Below, piece by piece: positions 4,481 through 9,462 of a stretch of 64,000 bases of DNA; the first letter of the stretch is position 1; every line of letters starts with the position of its first letter. The notes beneath the pieces were generated by a model. That model had not been told where the DNA came from, did not search any database, and saw only the letters and a list, made by a program, of their open reading frames with translations. The stretch comes from Oscillospiraceae bacterium (GTDB lineage: Bacteria; Bacillota; Clostridia; Oscillospirales; Acutalibacteraceae), in assembly GCA_015066225.1 (NCBI GenBank), contig SVOT01000004.1, positions 62,001 to 126,000 on the forward strand, written 5' to 3'. The position numbers and the translations under genes were made by a program.

Positions 4481-5248
4481 TCACCTCTGTTGTAATTTCA
4501 AAAATTCCTCGGCAAGAGCGTTATAGCTCTCCGCCCCGCGGGATGCCCTGTCGTAATAGAGAACGGGCTCGCCGAAGGATGGTGCCTCTGATAACCTTAC
4601 GTTCCTGGGGATAACGGTTGCGTAAACCTTCTTGGGGAAGAAGTTTTTGACCTCTGCTACAACCTGCTGAGTAAGGTTTAATCTGCCGTCGAACATTGTA
4701 AGGAGCACCCCCTCAAGCTCGATGAAGGGATTATATAAACGCTTGATTGTTCTCACGGTTGCCATAAGCTGTGAAAGACCCTCAAGTGCGTAATATTCAC
4801 ATTGAATGGGAACTATGAAGCTGTCTGACGCCGTAAGAGCGTTGAGAGTTATGAGACCGAGCGATGGCGGGCAATCAAAGAAAATAAAATCGTAATTCTC
4901 CTGCACGGGAGCTAACGCGTTTTTAAGAACGGACTCCCTTTTTTCCATAGCCGCAAGCTCAATCTCCGCACCGGCAAGGTTTATATTTGACGGGATTATA
5001 TCCACACCCTGAAACTTTGTTTTTATTATTGCTGAAAAAGCAGGCATAGTGCCTGTGAGAATTTCATAAGATGTAGCGGTGAGCCCTTTTCTTGAAATGC
5101 CGTAGCCACTTGTGGTGTTGCCCTGTGGGTCAATGTCAACAAGCAATATTCGTTTGCCCATTGCGCCAAGAGCCGCCGCAAGATTTACGGCACTTGTGGT
5201 TTTGCCCACGCCGCCTTTCTGATTAACTACCGAAATTATTTTTGCCAT
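4481..5248 (-). CDS. parA: Chromosome partitioning ATPase ParA/Soj
   Basis: The 255-residue protein opens with the deviant Walker A motif KGGVGKTT (residues about 11-18) that defines ParA/MinD ATPases. Switch residues follow at VDIDPQGN, and Walker B at FIFFDCPPSLG. The ATP-bound dimer binds DNA nonspecifically; ParB stimulates hydrolysis to drive origin segregation. Its place directly upstream of parB supports a chromosomal Soj role and suggests the window lies near the replication origin, although no dnaA, rnpA or rsmG is present here to confirm that. Confidence 0.95.
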   Translation of the reverse strand: MAKIISVVNQKGGVGKTTSAVNLAAALGAMGKRILLVDIDPQGNTTSGYGISRKGLTATSYEILTGTMPAFSAIIKTKFQGVDIIPSNINLAGAEIELAAMEKRESVLKNALAPVQENYDFIFFDCPPSLGLITLNALTASDSFIVPIQCEYYALEGLSQLMATVRTIKRLYNPFIELEGVLLTMFDGRLNLTQQVVAEVKNFFPKKVYATVIPRNVRLSEAPSFGEPVLYYDRASRGAESYNALAEEFLKLQQR

Positions 5249-5371
5249 TGTCTGTTCCTCTCAAAACCATTACATAGTCGCCCTATTTTATAATTATTTA
5301 GAGTATATCATATATAGAAAAAAAATGGAATAGTCGGAAAGGAAAAATATCAATTTTTTTCATAAAAATAA

Positions 5372-5402
5372 AAATGCCCTTGTCTGTAAAACAAAGGCAT
5401 TT
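5372..5402 (-). terminator. Intrinsic terminator, best oriented for the minus strand
   Basis: The arms AAATGCC (5372-5378) and GGCATTT (5396-5402) pair, extended by TTGT/ACAA with one mismatch between. On the minus strand the hairpin is followed by a T-rich run; the plus-strand tail is poor. It is the first good minus-strand terminator downstream of the lyase gene that ends at 6019. Confidence 0.6.
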
Positions 5403-5552
5403 CGTTTATTGCGTCCTTTACTGCACCCAACATATTTCAGTATAGCAGAACAGACACCTTTTGTCAATATTTTAACAAAATATATTGTTATTTTTCACTA
5501 ATTTCTGCTATTTACATAAAGTGTATTGGTTAACTTTGTACAACATTCCGTG

Positions 5553-5581
5553 TTGAAAAAGTATTTTTTTCGTGTTATTAT
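5553..5581 (+). promoter_or_regulatory. SigA-type promoter for the noncoding RNA
   Basis: TTGAAA at 5553-5558 and TATTAT at 5576-5581 are separated by exactly 17 bases. Predicted transcription start is about 5588. No protein gene lies downstream on this strand before the terminator at 5956-6010. Confidence 0.7.
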
Positions 5582-5587
5582 AAAGAC

Positions 5588-6010
5588 GAAGAAAGGGTGA
5601 GTCCAATGTACAGATAACTTCAAATCCAAAAGAAAGGATTGAGTCCGATGTGCAGATAAGCTACTCAATCAAAACCGATTGAGTTCCATTCTTCCCCCGC
5701 TCAAAAACTAAAAATGCTTGACATTGGTAAAGAGCTCTCCTGCTTCAAATATGAAGCTTGACGATAAACCGGAGCAAAGTAAAGTTCAAGAGCACAATTT
5801 AAGCCTTTTGAAGCAAAGCCGAAACAAAAGTGTTTCTCACTTACGGGAGTTTATATAGATACGACAAAATCATCTCGGCAACAATTCAACGGGTTTAAAA
5901 ATTCAAAGAAATGTGAGGTAACCAAAGATGTTAGATACTAAAATTGAATCCAGATAACCCTTGACTGTGGGCATCGAGAGATGGGCAGTCAAGGGTTATT
6001 TTCATTTTAT
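5588..6010 (+). ncRNA. Candidate structured noncoding RNA, about 415 nt, family not identified
   Basis: A promoter at 5553-5581 and a strong terminator at 5956-6010 bracket a stretch with no plausible long reading frame. A motif is repeated near the 5' end: GAAAGG, then GAGTCC, then ATGTRCAGATAA, at 5591-5618 and 5632-5660. A shorter third copy (GAATCC followed by AGATAAC) sits at 5946-5958 and runs into the terminator stem. Visible hairpins are GCTTCA-AATA-TGAAGC (5741-5756) and GAAACA-AAAG-TGTTTC (5821-5836). The ACTCAATC segment (5663-5670) can pair with GATTGAGT copies on either side, so two folds compete. A 9-codon frame with a weak ribosome site begins at 5928. I saw no tmRNA, RNase P, SRP or 6S hallmark; raiA-type RNA should be tested by covariance search. 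Confidence 0.6.
5956..6010 (+). terminator. Strong intrinsic terminator ending the noncoding RNA
   Basis: A perfect 12-bp stem pairs AACCCTTGACTG (5956-5967) with CAGTCAAGGGTT (5986-5997). An inner CATC-GAGA-GATG hairpin closes on a GNRA-type loop. A T-rich tail follows on the plus strand only, which sets the direction. Confidence 0.85.
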
Positions 6011-6018
6011 ATCTTAAT

Positions 6019-7467
6019 TTATTGGTCCTCGCCGAAATCAGCAATATATGCTTCAACAAGCTTTTCGGGCCAATCTGAAACCGCTTCGAGCTTACCTGTG
6101 AAGAAACGAAGGGTTTTGGGCTCATGAACAAATTTCAAACCGCCGATAAGGTGTCTGTGGTCATACAGCCACTTAACTCTATCAATTACATATTCAGTCT
6201 GTGAAAGGGTGAAAACACGTCTCGGGAAAGCAAGACGAACCATTTCAACAGATGCAATATGCTCTGTGCCGTCGGGGTTTCTTTCTTCGGAAAGTGTACC
6301 CCTTTCCATACCGCGAATACCGCCACAAAGGTAGAGTGCGGCAACAAGTGAGCCTGCGGGGTACTGCTCTGCAGGAATGTGGTCAACAACCTGTCTTGCA
6401 TCAATATGTGCACCAAGTCCGCCACCCGGCGTTACCATGGGAACACCTAGCTTATCAAGCTCTGTAACACAGTGATTAATGAACTGTGGTCCCTGTGAAA
6501 TGATATCCATATCCATTGTTTCTTCAAAGCCGATAATAAGTGCCTCCATCTCTTTAACGGACATACCGCCGTATGTAAGGAAGCCCTCAAACATCGTTAT
6601 GTAGTCTTCCATTGCGTGGAACATCTCTTCATCGCGAACCATAATTCCGCCACCACGGCCAAAACCGAATTTGCGGGCTGAGAAATACACAATATCGAAA
6701 AGGTCGGCAATCATTCTTGTGATTTCACGGATGGATTTATCCTGCATCCCGGCTTCTCTTGTTTTTATGAAGTAGAGGTTATCCTGTAAAAGAGAAGCGT
6801 CAAGAACTGTAACAATACCGTGTTGTTTTGCAATATCAGTTGCCTCTTTCATATTTTCGTAAGAAATGGGCTGACCGCCAATAAGGTTTGTACCCGCTTC
6901 AAGGCGCATATATGCAATGTTTTCTGCCCCCTCCTTTTCAATACAAGCCTTAACCTTGTCAAGGTCAATGTTTCCCTTGAAGGGAAGATTACTTTTTACA
7001 ACAAGCCCTTCATCCTTGACAAGCTCTTCAACTCTGCCACCAAGACGTGTAACGTGTGCCTTTGAGGTTGTGAAATGGTAGTTCATAATCACACAACTAC
7101 CGGGCTTTACAAAATGCTGTGCAATAATATGCTCGCAGGCTCTGCCCTGATGAGTGGGGAGAAGATACTTCATACCGAAAATTCCGGTCAGCTTTTCATT
7201 CATTCTGTAAAAGGTTTCGCTGCCTGCATAAGCATCGTCTGCACGAAGCATAGCGGATTGCATATTGTCACTCATAGCGTTAACGCCGGAATCCGTGAGC
7301 ATATCCATAAAGATATCGCCGTTGTGAAGCATAAATGTGTTGAAGCCCGCTTCTCTGAGCTTATTCAAACGCTCTCTTGCGGGCAAAAGAGAGAGCTTCT
7401 GAACTATTTTCACCTTGTGCATTTCAACGGGCACAGGCTCACGATTGTAAAATTTGATTTCTGCCAT
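6019..7467 (-). CDS. Tryptophanase / tyrosine phenol-lyase family PLP beta-eliminating lyase
   Basis: The 482-residue fold-type I PLP enzyme matches tyrosine phenol-lyase and tryptophanase along its length. Shared blocks are LTDSGVNAMSD, DDAYAGSETFY, PTHQGRACEH, GGQPIS, the Schiff-base lysine region FSARKFGFGRGGG and GMERGTLSEERN, whose Arg contacts substrate in the family. The family releases indole or phenol plus pyruvate and ammonia. The Arg after the PLP-contacting Asp (DATR in TPL, DSAR in TnaA) is replaced: here the block reads DASLLQDN. The lysine block is also unlike the usual SGKKD. Substrate is therefore uncertain. It is divergent from a LysR gene with a shared operator region, suggesting inducible control. 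Confidence 0.85.
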   Translation of the reverse strand: MAEIKFYNREPVPVEMHKVKIVQKLSLLPARERLNKLREAGFNTFMLHNGDIFMDMLTDSGVNAMSDNMQSAMLRADDAYAGSETFYRMNEKLTGIFGMKYLLPTHQGRACEHIIAQHFVKPGSCVIMNYHFTTSKAHVTRLGGRVEELVKDEGLVVKSNLPFKGNIDLDKVKACIEKEGAENIAYMRLEAGTNLIGGQPISYENMKEATDIAKQHGIVTVLDASLLQDNLYFIKTREAGMQDKSIREITRMIADLFDIVYFSARKFGFGRGGGIMVRDEEMFHAMEDYITMFEGFLTYGGMSVKEMEALIIGFEETMDMDIISQGPQFINHCVTELDKLGVPMVTPGGGLGAHIDARQVVDHIPAEQYPAGSLVAALYLCGGIRGMERGTLSEERNPDGTEHIASVEMVRLAFPRRVFTLSQTEYVIDRVKWLYDHRHLIGGLKFVHEPKTLRFFTGKLEAVSDWPEKLVEAYIADFGEDQ

Positions 7468-7591: not shown

Positions 7592-8476
7592 ATGGAGATA
7601 AGAAACCTTATTTCATTCGTTCACGTTGCAGAGCTCAACAGCTTCACAAAAGCTGCTGAGGTGTTGGGTTATTCACAATCCACCATCTCTTTTCAGATAA
7701 AACAGCTGGAAACAGAGCTTGACTGTCTTCTTTTTGAAAGAATAAATCACACAATAACCCTCACCCAACGCGGCGAAGAATTGCTTGAATACGCCCAGAA
7801 TATCAGCAGGCTTACAGAAGAATTCAAGCAAAACACAGCCTCAGATAAAACAATAAAAGGCTCTGTTCACGTAGTTTCGCCCGATTCAATCTGCGAAGAA
7901 ATGCTGATGTCCAACTACGGCAAATTTAGCAAGCTTTACCCGCAAATAAACCTGAGATTCACCGCCGCAGACACCCTTGATATGTTTGAAATGCTCGACA
8001 AAAACGAGGCAGACATAATGCTGACCCTTGACAATCACATCCACCGAAACGACTACGTAATCGCAAAAGAAAAACACATTGATATGCATTTTGTAACTAA
8101 TGCAAATTCCCCCTTACTCAAACGCAAAGAGCTTTCAATATTCGATATAATAAACGAACCCTTTTTGCTCACAGAGCGCGGTATGGGTTACCGCAGAGTT
8201 CTTGATAAAGAGCTGGCAAAAAAGTCCATTGAAATTTCTCCCATACTTGAAGTTGGGCGAACCGATATAATTACAAGCCTTCTTGAGAACGGCGAGGGTA
8301 TATCATACCTCCCCGATTTTGTAACGAAGAAAAAGGTCAACGATGGTAAACTGGCATACCTTAACATAACCGATATACAAACCGATATATGGGAACAGCT
8401 CATATACCACAAAAACAAATGGGTGTCAAATTGCCTGAAAGCATTTATTGAATTTGTAACGGAAGTAGAATTTTAA
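7592..8476 (+). CDS. LysR-family transcriptional regulator
   Basis: The 294-residue protein has the LysR N-terminal winged helix-turn-helix: residues about 3-60, with FTKAAEVLGYSQSTISFQIK and LLFERINHTITLTQRGEELL. A periplasmic-binding-like effector domain follows to the C terminus. The ATG at 7592 has a GGAGG site. It is transcribed away from the lyase gene with the dyad at 7541-7560 between them, so the lyase is its likely target and the lyase substrate or a related aromatic compound the likely inducer (inference). It ends in a TAATG overlap with the next gene, so the two are translationally coupled. Confidence 0.92.
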   Translation: MEIRNLISFVHVAELNSFTKAAEVLGYSQSTISFQIKQLETELDCLLFERINHTITLTQRGEELLEYAQNISRLTEEFKQNTASDKTIKGSVHVVSPDSICEEMLMSNYGKFSKLYPQINLRFTAADTLDMFEMLDKNEADIMLTLDNHIHRNDYVIAKEKHIDMHFVTNANSPLLKRKELSIFDIINEPFLLTERGMGYRRVLDKELAKKSIEISPILEVGRTDIITSLLENGEGISYLPDFVTKKKVNDGKLAYLNITDIQTDIWEQLIYHKNKWVSNCLKAFIEFVTEVEF

Positions 8477-9462
8477 TGAAAAATATTGTGTCTGTCATTA
8501 ACCAATACGGAAAAAACCATAAAAAAAGCCCCTGCAACAAGCGTATTGCTTGCAGAGGGATAATAATAAAAGAAGACAAAATCCTCATTTCACAGCAAAA
8601 AAACACGGGTATGATGCTTTTACCCGGAGGTGGGCTTGAAAACGGCGAAAGCTACGCAAATTGCTGCAAACGAGAAGTGCTTGAAGAAACGGGCTTTGTA
8701 GTAAATCCTAATCACCATTTTCTTACGGTGAATGAATACTACGAGGACTGGCTGTATGAAACCCACTTTTTCTTTTGTGAAATCGTTGAAGCCGCCACCC
8801 CAAAGCTTACAGAGCACGAAATTCTTGCCGGTGCCTGTACACAATGGGTGGAAATTGACGAGGCTGTTCTTGAATTCGGGAAATATGCCGAATATGAAAA
8901 CAGTGACCCCGAGAAAAGCGGTCAGTACCGACGTGAAGAGGCGGCAATCCGCTTTTATCTTGAAAACGTACAAACGCCTTTCACCTTTATTCAGCAATTA
9001 TTCCCACCGAAACAGCCCATAACAAAAAAAAGAATATCCGCAAGAGCAATCATTAATCAGAATAACAAAATTCTTTTTGTAAACGAGCTTTGCGACGGCA
9101 CTCTGATGAGCACCGGCGGTGGGCTTGAAGAGGGAGAAACCCTCGAAGAATGCTGCAAACGAGAGGTGCTTGAGGAAACGGGCTACATTGTGACACCAAA
9201 AAAACATTTCCTTACCGTTAACGAGTATTTTGAGGATACCTTGTATGTGGGAGTTTATTTTATTTGCGAAATAACAGGTAGCGGCGAGCCCGCCCTCACC
9301 TCTACCGAAAAGCATAAAAAAACAGTTTCAAAATGGGTTGATATTGACGAGGCTCTTGATGTTTTCAAAAATTTCACAGGTCTCAGAAAAATTGACGAGG
9401 GCAAAGAATCCCTTTACACAAGAGAATACACGGTATTAAAAAAATACAAGGAGCTTTTGTAA
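8476..9462 (+). CDS. Tandem double-Nudix hydrolase family protein
   Basis: The 328 residues contain two complete Nudix domains in a row. Box 1 begins GGGLENGESYANCC and continues KREVLEETGF near residues 50-76. Box 2 begins GGGLEEGETLEECC and continues KREVLEETGY near residues 212-238. Both keep the GX5EX7REUXEEXGU metal-binding pattern, so both may hydrolyse nucleoside-diphosphate-linked substrates. The halves match at DNA level around the boxes, pointing to an internal duplication. The gene starts inside the LysR stop codon (TAATG), a fixed coupling whose meaning is unclear. Substrate cannot be read from sequence; housecleaning of damaged nucleotides is one option. Confidence 0.88.
   Translation: MKNIVSVINQYGKNHKKSPCNKRIACRGIIIKEDKILISQQKNTGMMLLPGGGLENGESYANCCKREVLEETGFVVNPNHHFLTVNEYYEDWLYETHFFFCEIVEAATPKLTEHEILAGACTQWVEIDEAVLEFGKYAEYENSDPEKSGQYRREEAAIRFYLENVQTPFTFIQQLFPPKQPITKKRISARAIINQNNKILFVNELCDGTLMSTGGGLEEGETLEECCKREVLEETGYIVTPKKHFLTVNEYFEDTLYVGVYFICEITGSGEPALTSTEKHKKTVSKWVDIDEALDVFKNFTGLRKIDEGKESLYTREYTVLKKYKELL

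Follow-up and report, generated by a model that had tools for sequence, protein, structure and literature searches.

The locus at positions 5371 to 6008 of the window, i.e., the whole 64,000-nt stretch of DNA that was analysed, belongs to a family of structured RNAs of Clostridia, free-standing and carrying short open reading frames (ORFs). The members are 205–596 nt long (70 copies), and their comparison establishes, at the level of sequence, a structured RNA that stands alone and bears selected reading frames. The first-pass annotation had likewise seen an RNA of about 415 nt that is free-standing, structured and made of several domains, a view supported by the homologues, the recurrent promoter and terminator and the covariation described below. 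However, the label "noncoding" attached to it was wrong, as the family comparison shows that the short ORFs are evolutionarily constrained. The copy in the window has the following features.

5371..5432, minus strand: predicted divergent micro-transcript of about 60 nt, starting ..ATATGTTGGG, with its terminator at 5403-5371
5439..5467, minus strand: divergent promoter, TTGACA-17-TATACT
5468..5552, no strand assigned: inter-promoter region, conserved in the promoter alignment, with 85 bp between the divergent −35 boxes in this copy
5553..5581, plus strand: promoter of the long RNA, TTGAAA-17-TATTAT (motif, plus aligned promoter regions of 70 copies)
about 5585-5588, plus strand: predicted transcription start of the long RNA, from the promoter position
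5590..5604, plus strand: extended Shine–Dalgarno of minigene 1, AGAAAGGGTGAGTCC (duplex with the 16S tail)
5606..5617, plus strand: minigene 1, ATG TAC AGA TAA (M-Y-R-stop)
5631..5646, plus strand: extended Shine–Dalgarno of minigene 2 (duplex with the 16S tail, −15.3 kcal/mol)
5648..5659, plus strand: minigene 2, ATG TGC AGA TAA (M-C-R-stop)
5660..5798, plus strand: middle region, variable in sequence
5799..5905, plus strand: irregular folded arm, stems P1-P3 around hairpin P4 (R2/R3 matches at 5799-5918, covariation)
5834..5849, plus strand: P4 hairpin, TTCTC-ACTTAC-GGGAG, with an RCUUAA-type loop
5907..5919, plus strand: Shine–Dalgarno region of the 3′ micro-ORF, AGAAATGTGAGGT
5928..5957, plus strand: 3′ micro-ORF MLDTKIESR, with counterparts in relatives
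5952..6008, plus strand: intrinsic terminator, stem 5952-5968/5985-6001 plus a T-rich tail

The transcript of 418 nt in the window folds with a z-score of −4.31, and none of 100 shuffles was equally good. The promoter TTGAAA-17-TATTAT, proposed from this sequence alone, is borne out at 5553-5581. A terminator had also been proposed and is present, but its stem comprises 17 pairs, including two G–U pairs, rather than 12. The statement that no protein gene lies here stands in that the + strand holds no ORF of at least 60 aa between 5588 and 6003 (a 66-aa ORF on the minus strand overlaps the end of the region), but it overlooks the two three-codon minigenes and the nine-codon ORF. The motif GAGTCC...AGATAA had been counted three times. 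Two of these copies, at 5598-5617 and 5640-5659, are units composed of an extended Shine–Dalgarno and a three-codon gene, whereas the third, GAATCCAGATAA (5946-5957), is not such a unit; it represents codons 7-10 of the nine-codon ORF and is found in 2/70 full-length copies. The complementarity of ACTCAATC to two copies of GATTGAGT was read correctly. However, ACTCAATC occurs in 1/70 copies, showing that the mutually exclusive two-fold switch proposed from it is not conserved.

A search with Rfam 15 at gathering thresholds returned one tRNA elsewhere in the window and nothing in the RNA, as well as eight matches (tRNA, TPP, Gut-1) in 18 further loci, none overlapping the RNA, so that raiA, 6S, OLE and ROOL, the candidates named earlier, fall away at that threshold. 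With relaxed cut-offs, other families appeared below threshold, the best at 40.1 bits vs. the 56 needed. No catalogued family matching the RNA was found in Rfam or in searches of mainly open-access literature, and the family is apparently uncatalogued.

A DNA search of 99 genomes gave matches in 15 (own genome counted), often in pieces, i.e., the 5′ end, a central island and the 3′ end, while the flanks were not shared. A covariance model of the 3′ module, R1, matched 17/22 genomes of the genus, 23/250 of the family, 71/394 of the order and 23/391 of the class, each count including the own genome and some weak matches; in the phylum sample it matched 2/398, the own genome and one weak match. 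Three of the five genus genomes in which R1 gave no match are at least 95% complete. A sequence pattern for the 3′ module matched at least 116 stretches in a collection of genome contigs. Among the matches listed, all but three belong to Oscillospiraceae, Ruminococcaceae, other Clostridia/Bacillota or unnamed bacteria, and many of the carriers come from animal guts; L075, L087 and L148, from other bacteria, were taken as chance matches. The pattern fixed the letters ATGTTAGATA, which are thus conserved in L045-L160 by construction. Copy numbers are underestimates, because a model of the folded arm (R3, described below) found an extra copy at L049:5054-5245 with a diverged micro-ORF, MTDFKTEQR, that the pattern misses. 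The pattern gave 0 matches in a viral contigs collection, and window 5880-6010 gave no blastn match in plasmid and phage collections, where diverged copies could be missed; a phage- or plasmid-borne element was rejected as no such carriage was found.

The first set comprises 103 instances of the 3′ module, a few of which are the same copy fetched twice. After exclusion of identical sequences and of long or N-containing hairpins, 86 were eligible for alignment and 83 of these were aligned. Held-out loci from a later scan supplied 36 new instances, the chance match included, and a 5′ module was found in 29 held-out instances, three of them weak (E>0.001). The window's own genome holds two copies that differ in sub-type by eye. 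The second paralogue (G000:C12:373199-373642; L044:6201-6690, minus) carries a CCCACTTGAGGG hairpin and a micro-ORF that stops with TAG. At least G006, G007, G008, G013, G017 and G020 also carry both sub-types, one copy each on the same contig. A sequence in another genus (L043:6900-7130) has the tandem minigenes ATG TAC ATC TGA and ATG TTC TAG and, as read by eye, seems to finish in a plain terminator without a 3′ micro-ORF.

In single-sequence folds, many copies form nested stems that enclose a short hairpin, its loop of the RCUUAA type, immediately upstream of the 3′ Shine–Dalgarno. An alignment of 13 mixed copies with MAFFT and RNAalifold recovered only hairpin P4 (four pairs, no double changes), because the stems were misregistered. 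The arm was defined on five close copies (A5), with a structure hand-written from the folds and P1 one column off in three of them. These five copies gave model R2, and the R2 matches gave model R3. R2 found 24 matches in 787 kb, with double changes in 26/28 pairs and in 137 cells, compared with 44.6 in shuffled alignments and 12-36 in slid versions. R3 found 60 matches in the same loci, of which 58 adjoin one of 102 pattern-defined copies; the other two were judged by eye to be parts of real copies. Because the R2 and R3 alignments are themselves fitted to this structure, the counts are given alongside shuffled and slid controls and for matches from outside the training set. R3 gave 39 matches in loci not used for the model, which have no 25-mer in common with the training rows and show 278 double-change cells vs. 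97 in shuffled and 52-82 in slid versions. All 28 pairs contain a double change in these matches (shuffles average 24.8, and 3/500 reach 28), and the cell counts and covariation score were reached by 0/500 shuffles. Covariation in homologues, which had been set beforehand as a test, was thus found in the folded arm, as it was in the terminator stem. The R3 matches lie just before the 3′ ORF in 58/60 cases in the first loci and in 22/22 among the matches listed of the 39, a position that is partly built in because R3 models part of the Shine–Dalgarno. The arm is recognisable in more than half of the copies, with a match (E<0.5) adjoining only 58/102 pattern-defined ones, and the region between it and the minigenes is variable in sequence across copies.

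At the 3′ end, the copies share a second Shine–Dalgarno, whose duplex with the 16S tail averages −14.1 kcal/mol; after it come ATGTTAGATA.. and, in the same frame, a stop codon at the terminator base. With one exception, the ORFs of the 103 instances contain 7-9 sense codons, and the stop (TAA, TAG or TGA) lies within the 5′ arm of the terminator in 99/103, as does the TAA at 5955-5957 in the window; three of the remaining stops lie within 2 nt before the arm and one ORF reads into the loop. The terminator stem covaries, the stop-codon columns included, with double changes in 17/18 pairs. In 37/38 held-out instances, the ORF, stop and terminator are arranged in the same way; the remaining one is a chance match from another phylum class. 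Among 40 R1 matches in other genomes (20 low-scoring and 20 mostly from other families, about half of the 40 being high-scoring), 38 have an ORF of 8-11 sense codons that ends at the terminator. In those loci, leucine is encoded by TTA, CTC, CTT, CTG, CTA or TTG and aspartate by GAT or GAC around a peptide core M-(x)-[LI]-[DE]-x-K, and whole-codon insertions (M-K-LDF.., M-T-LDI..) and TTG starts also occur there. These observations indicate that the frame and, in part, the peptide are under selection, so that the 3′ ORF is an evolutionarily constrained short ORF, with the reservation that the synonymous-codon argument uses loci found by R1, which was itself trained on such copies.

At the 5′ end, the motif seen in copies aligned side by side is a Shine–Dalgarno, AGAAAGGGTGAGTCC, that is nearly complementary to the 16S tail; directly after it stands a gene made of ATG, two more codons and a stop. 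Copies typically open with 1-4 such minigenes, sometimes in tandem, behind very strong Shine–Dalgarnos, close to a 5′ end that is predicted from the promoter. The Shine–Dalgarnos of the minigenes form duplexes of −15.9 kcal/mol on average (70 copies) vs. −8.9 for 10 window genes, and the 20 bases before the ATG of minigene 1 give −16.0 kcal/mol. The 16S tail was taken from the ends of two 16S genes in one genome of the order; it has an exact match in 1/40 relatives and none in the window's own assembly, so it is assumed for the own species. A 5′ profile seeded with 72 sequences from the same loci matched 94/103 instances; 80 distinct matches passed E<1e-5, and 69 with a recognised site entered the minigene count. 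Promoter conservation in this first set is partly circular, because the seeds were chosen by a promoter-plus-Shine–Dalgarno pattern. The first ORF has at most three sense codons in 65/69 copies, its commonest second codon being TAC and its commonest third AGG. In 40 loci fetched by the 3′ module alone, 32 Shine–Dalgarno–start sites were found in 27 loci, and 29/32 end at codon 2 or 3. On the opposite strand, used as a control, there are only two sites, neither of which ends there, and the RNAs themselves are counted in the "all loci" tally. Among held-out loci with a Shine–Dalgarno–start site, the first minigene has at most three sense codons in 15/18. The minigene pattern is absent in 10/80 copies and in 13/40 of the loci fetched by the 3′ module.

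A second promoter faces away from the long RNA. Among 72 copies with enough upstream sequence, 70 have a minus-strand TTGACA-16/18-TATAAT-like promoter 30–60 bases upstream of the start of the 5′ module, compared with about 5/72 mononucleotide-shuffled upstream regions scoring at least 10 anywhere. The spacing of the two −35 boxes falls into clusters of 64-65, 74-76 and 85-87 bp, i.e., one helical turn apart, and these clusters hold 62/65 usable first-set copies and 15/19 held-out ones; the divergent promoter was found at a phased offset in 22/29 held-out instances, two others lacking the needed sequence. A terminator-like hairpin with a T-rich tail starts at most 21 nt from the −10 box in 54/70 copies (0.4 in shuffles) and ends at a median of 30 nt after it, with TGTTG or a variant immediately before it in 60/70. 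This placement predicts a divergent product of about 30–40 nt in most copies and of ~60 nt in the window. The region between the promoters, e.g., window 5508-5552, contains recurrent TTTCTG-Y-GTTTTG-ATAAA and TTTGTACAAAATT elements, which look like an operator for some regulator. The divergent promoter is probably there so that the locus can be regulated jointly. In the window, the minus strand at 5371-5467 carries the divergent promoter and terminator and then, at 5248, the start of a ParA-like ORF, so this unit could also be a terminator-bearing parA leader.

The reading that we favour, at somewhat less than even confidence, is that the RNA is structured, acts in trans and has its stability or activity governed by ribosomes sitting on minimal ORFs at its 5′ and 3′ ends. 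The RNA would act in trans via the folded arm and the variable middle, which are candidate regions for base-pairing with target mRNAs, and the minimal ORFs would let ribosomes occupy both of its ends without entering the structured part. The 5′ minigenes would serve as a ribosome cap against decay from the 5′ end, and the 3′ ORF would place a terminating ribosome at the foot of the terminator, such that the level or activity of the RNA would report ribosome availability or translation stress. This reading is preferred because both ends have very strong ribosome sites and ORFs too short to reach the folded part, and because a ribosome at a mini-ORF has been reported to protect mRNA from RNase E, as PMC8708949 relates for the six-codon mini-ORF with a strong Shine–Dalgarno in EHEC LEE4 espADB (Lodato 2012). 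Stabilisation alone, however, accounts neither for the fusion of stop and terminator nor for the divergent promoter, and the partly conserved Leu, Asp and Lys codons count against ribosome bracketing by hinting that the 3′ peptide may itself matter. In our order of preference, ribosome bracketing is followed by a micropeptide, a drop-off or toxin-like function and attenuation in cis.

It is unlikely, though more probable than the other alternatives, that the RNA is the mRNA of a functional micropeptide (commonest forms such as MLDIKSEQK) with the remainder as an elaborate leader. Such a role would agree with the occurrence, around the Leu-Asp/Glu-x-Lys core, of synonymous substitutions and of insertions that keep the frame, and with a length of 7-11 sense codons in 102/103 instances and in all 38 ORFs from the 40 R1 loci. 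However, the C-terminal half is variable and shares sequence with the terminator stem, even the core is not constant (MIEPK.., MLEPA.., MKLQI..), and the minigenes, folded arm and phased promoters would be left unexplained.

We consider it quite improbable that the RNA is a translation brake, in which ORFs of 1-3 codons sequester tRNA as peptidyl-tRNA or tie up ribosomes when heavily translated; it would act as a toxin-like element or stress sensor and be controlled by the divergent unit. According to PMC8708949, minigene toxicity is favoured by a very short ORF, a strong Shine–Dalgarno, a UAA stop and a rare last codon. The minigenes here are very short and have strong Shine–Dalgarnos, the first ones stop with TAA in 58, TGA in 4 and TAG in 3 of 65 copies, and AGG is the last codon in 31/59 three-codon minigenes, compared with 4.8 AGG per 1000 codons in 36 window genes. 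These 59 minigenes, however, are related sequences, and the last codon is highly variable across the 40 loci fetched by the 3′ module. An antisense antitoxin was not seen either, since the long RNA of the same locus is not a better pairing partner for the divergent RNA than the long RNAs of other loci (mean rank fraction 0.49 over 70 pairs, own-pair vs. cross-pair duplex energies with intramolecular structure left aside); this result does not support an antisense role of the divergent transcript.

Attenuation in cis is still less probable. In this case, ribosomes on the minigenes or the 3′ ORF would decide whether transcription runs past the terminator into a downstream gene, as in antibiotic-responsive leaders. 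A stop codon inside the terminator stem is a geometry that would couple translation to termination, and uORF precedents such as rli53/lmo0919 have been described (PMC11550727). However, a conserved co-directional downstream gene was not found: the downstream gene is co-directional in 37/90 cases and belongs to no single family, and the upstream gene is divergent in 52/87 (counts that leave out the window, L030 and four loci repeating others). The largest recurring cluster of neighbour proteins comprises 10/182, mostly from one genus, the rest being smaller and mostly from close relatives. In the window, the next gene is convergent (6019-7467 minus), an ORF that we take by eye to be tryptophanase-like; the left neighbour (4481-5248 minus) is the ORF called ParA-like above, likewise by eye. 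Neither the orientation nor the identity of the neighbours supports cis-attenuation. Farther along the window, 8476-9462 holds an ORF that by eye resembles two fused NUDIX-like domains, after a presumed LysR-like ORF. In a roe-deer MAG, one copy is followed at a distance of ~0.4 kb by a Gut-1 RNA (RF01706; L057:2186-2262 minus), and a tRNA gene separates the two; the entry for Gut-1 RNA in a 2010 listing reads "Human gut only" (PMC2864571). A chance or purely mechanical pattern, i.e., a strong terminator and promoter around intergenic DNA, would fit the variable middle region, but the homology, covariation and reading-frame results, including those from loci not used to define the features, leave it almost no probability.

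Several known systems share single features with this family. The STAB-SD of cry mRNAs is a strong Shine–Dalgarno that recruits ribosomes and stabilises the mRNA. Similar to this element and to the mini-ORF stabilisers, the RNA has a very short ORF or strong Shine–Dalgarno that would recruit ribosomes. However, those elements lie in the leaders of protein-coding mRNAs, whereas the RNA here stands alone, its minigenes can be in tandem, and its second ORF ends in the terminator; two-codon minigenes have been noted in LEE1 and axe-txe (PMC8708949). With antibiotic-responsive uORF attenuators (rli53/lmo0919, whiB7/wblC), the family shares a short ORF, a structured leader and an intrinsic terminator (PMC11550727), but it lacks their conserved co-directional downstream gene. 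In the dual-function sRNA VcdRP, a regulatory RNA also bears a short ORF, the 29-aa VcdP. SgrS/SgrT is a further dual-function sRNA, and we know of none with minigenes or with an ORF fused to the terminator. IstR/TisB is a type I toxin–antitoxin locus in which a small RNA is divergent from a translated RNA, as it is here; the divergent RNA of this family, in contrast, shows no preferential pairing with its own partner. No hydrophobic toxin ORF was seen among the recurrent ORFs, which have 1-3 or mostly 8-11 codons and are polar or charged, and a type I toxin–antitoxin system was rejected on both grounds.

No known class that we tested or are aware of combines these features, and the RNA was for this reason judged to be categorically new. 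It may, somewhat more tentatively than the ribosome-bracketing mechanism itself, represent a new class of regulatory RNA, a "ribosome-bracketed RNA", i.e., a structured trans-acting RNA that would report the state of the translation machinery from a locus with two phase-locked divergent promoters, one of which would yield little beyond a terminator hairpin. On a stricter reading, it could alternatively be filed as an unusual dual-function RNA.

Two- and three-codon minigenes are otherwise familiar as artificial constructs, phage oddities or elements of mRNA leaders. Here, a dispersed family of stand-alone RNAs of Clostridia recurrently opens with them, sometimes in tandem, and they are coupled to a micro-ORF whose stop is embedded in the terminator. 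The family adds an RNA not yet covered by Rfam here, in bacteria of which many come from animal guts, and it offers a natural comparative system for testing the purpose of translating almost nothing. If the ribosome-bracketing reading is true, this RNA may tie its own fate directly to the ribosomes of the cell.
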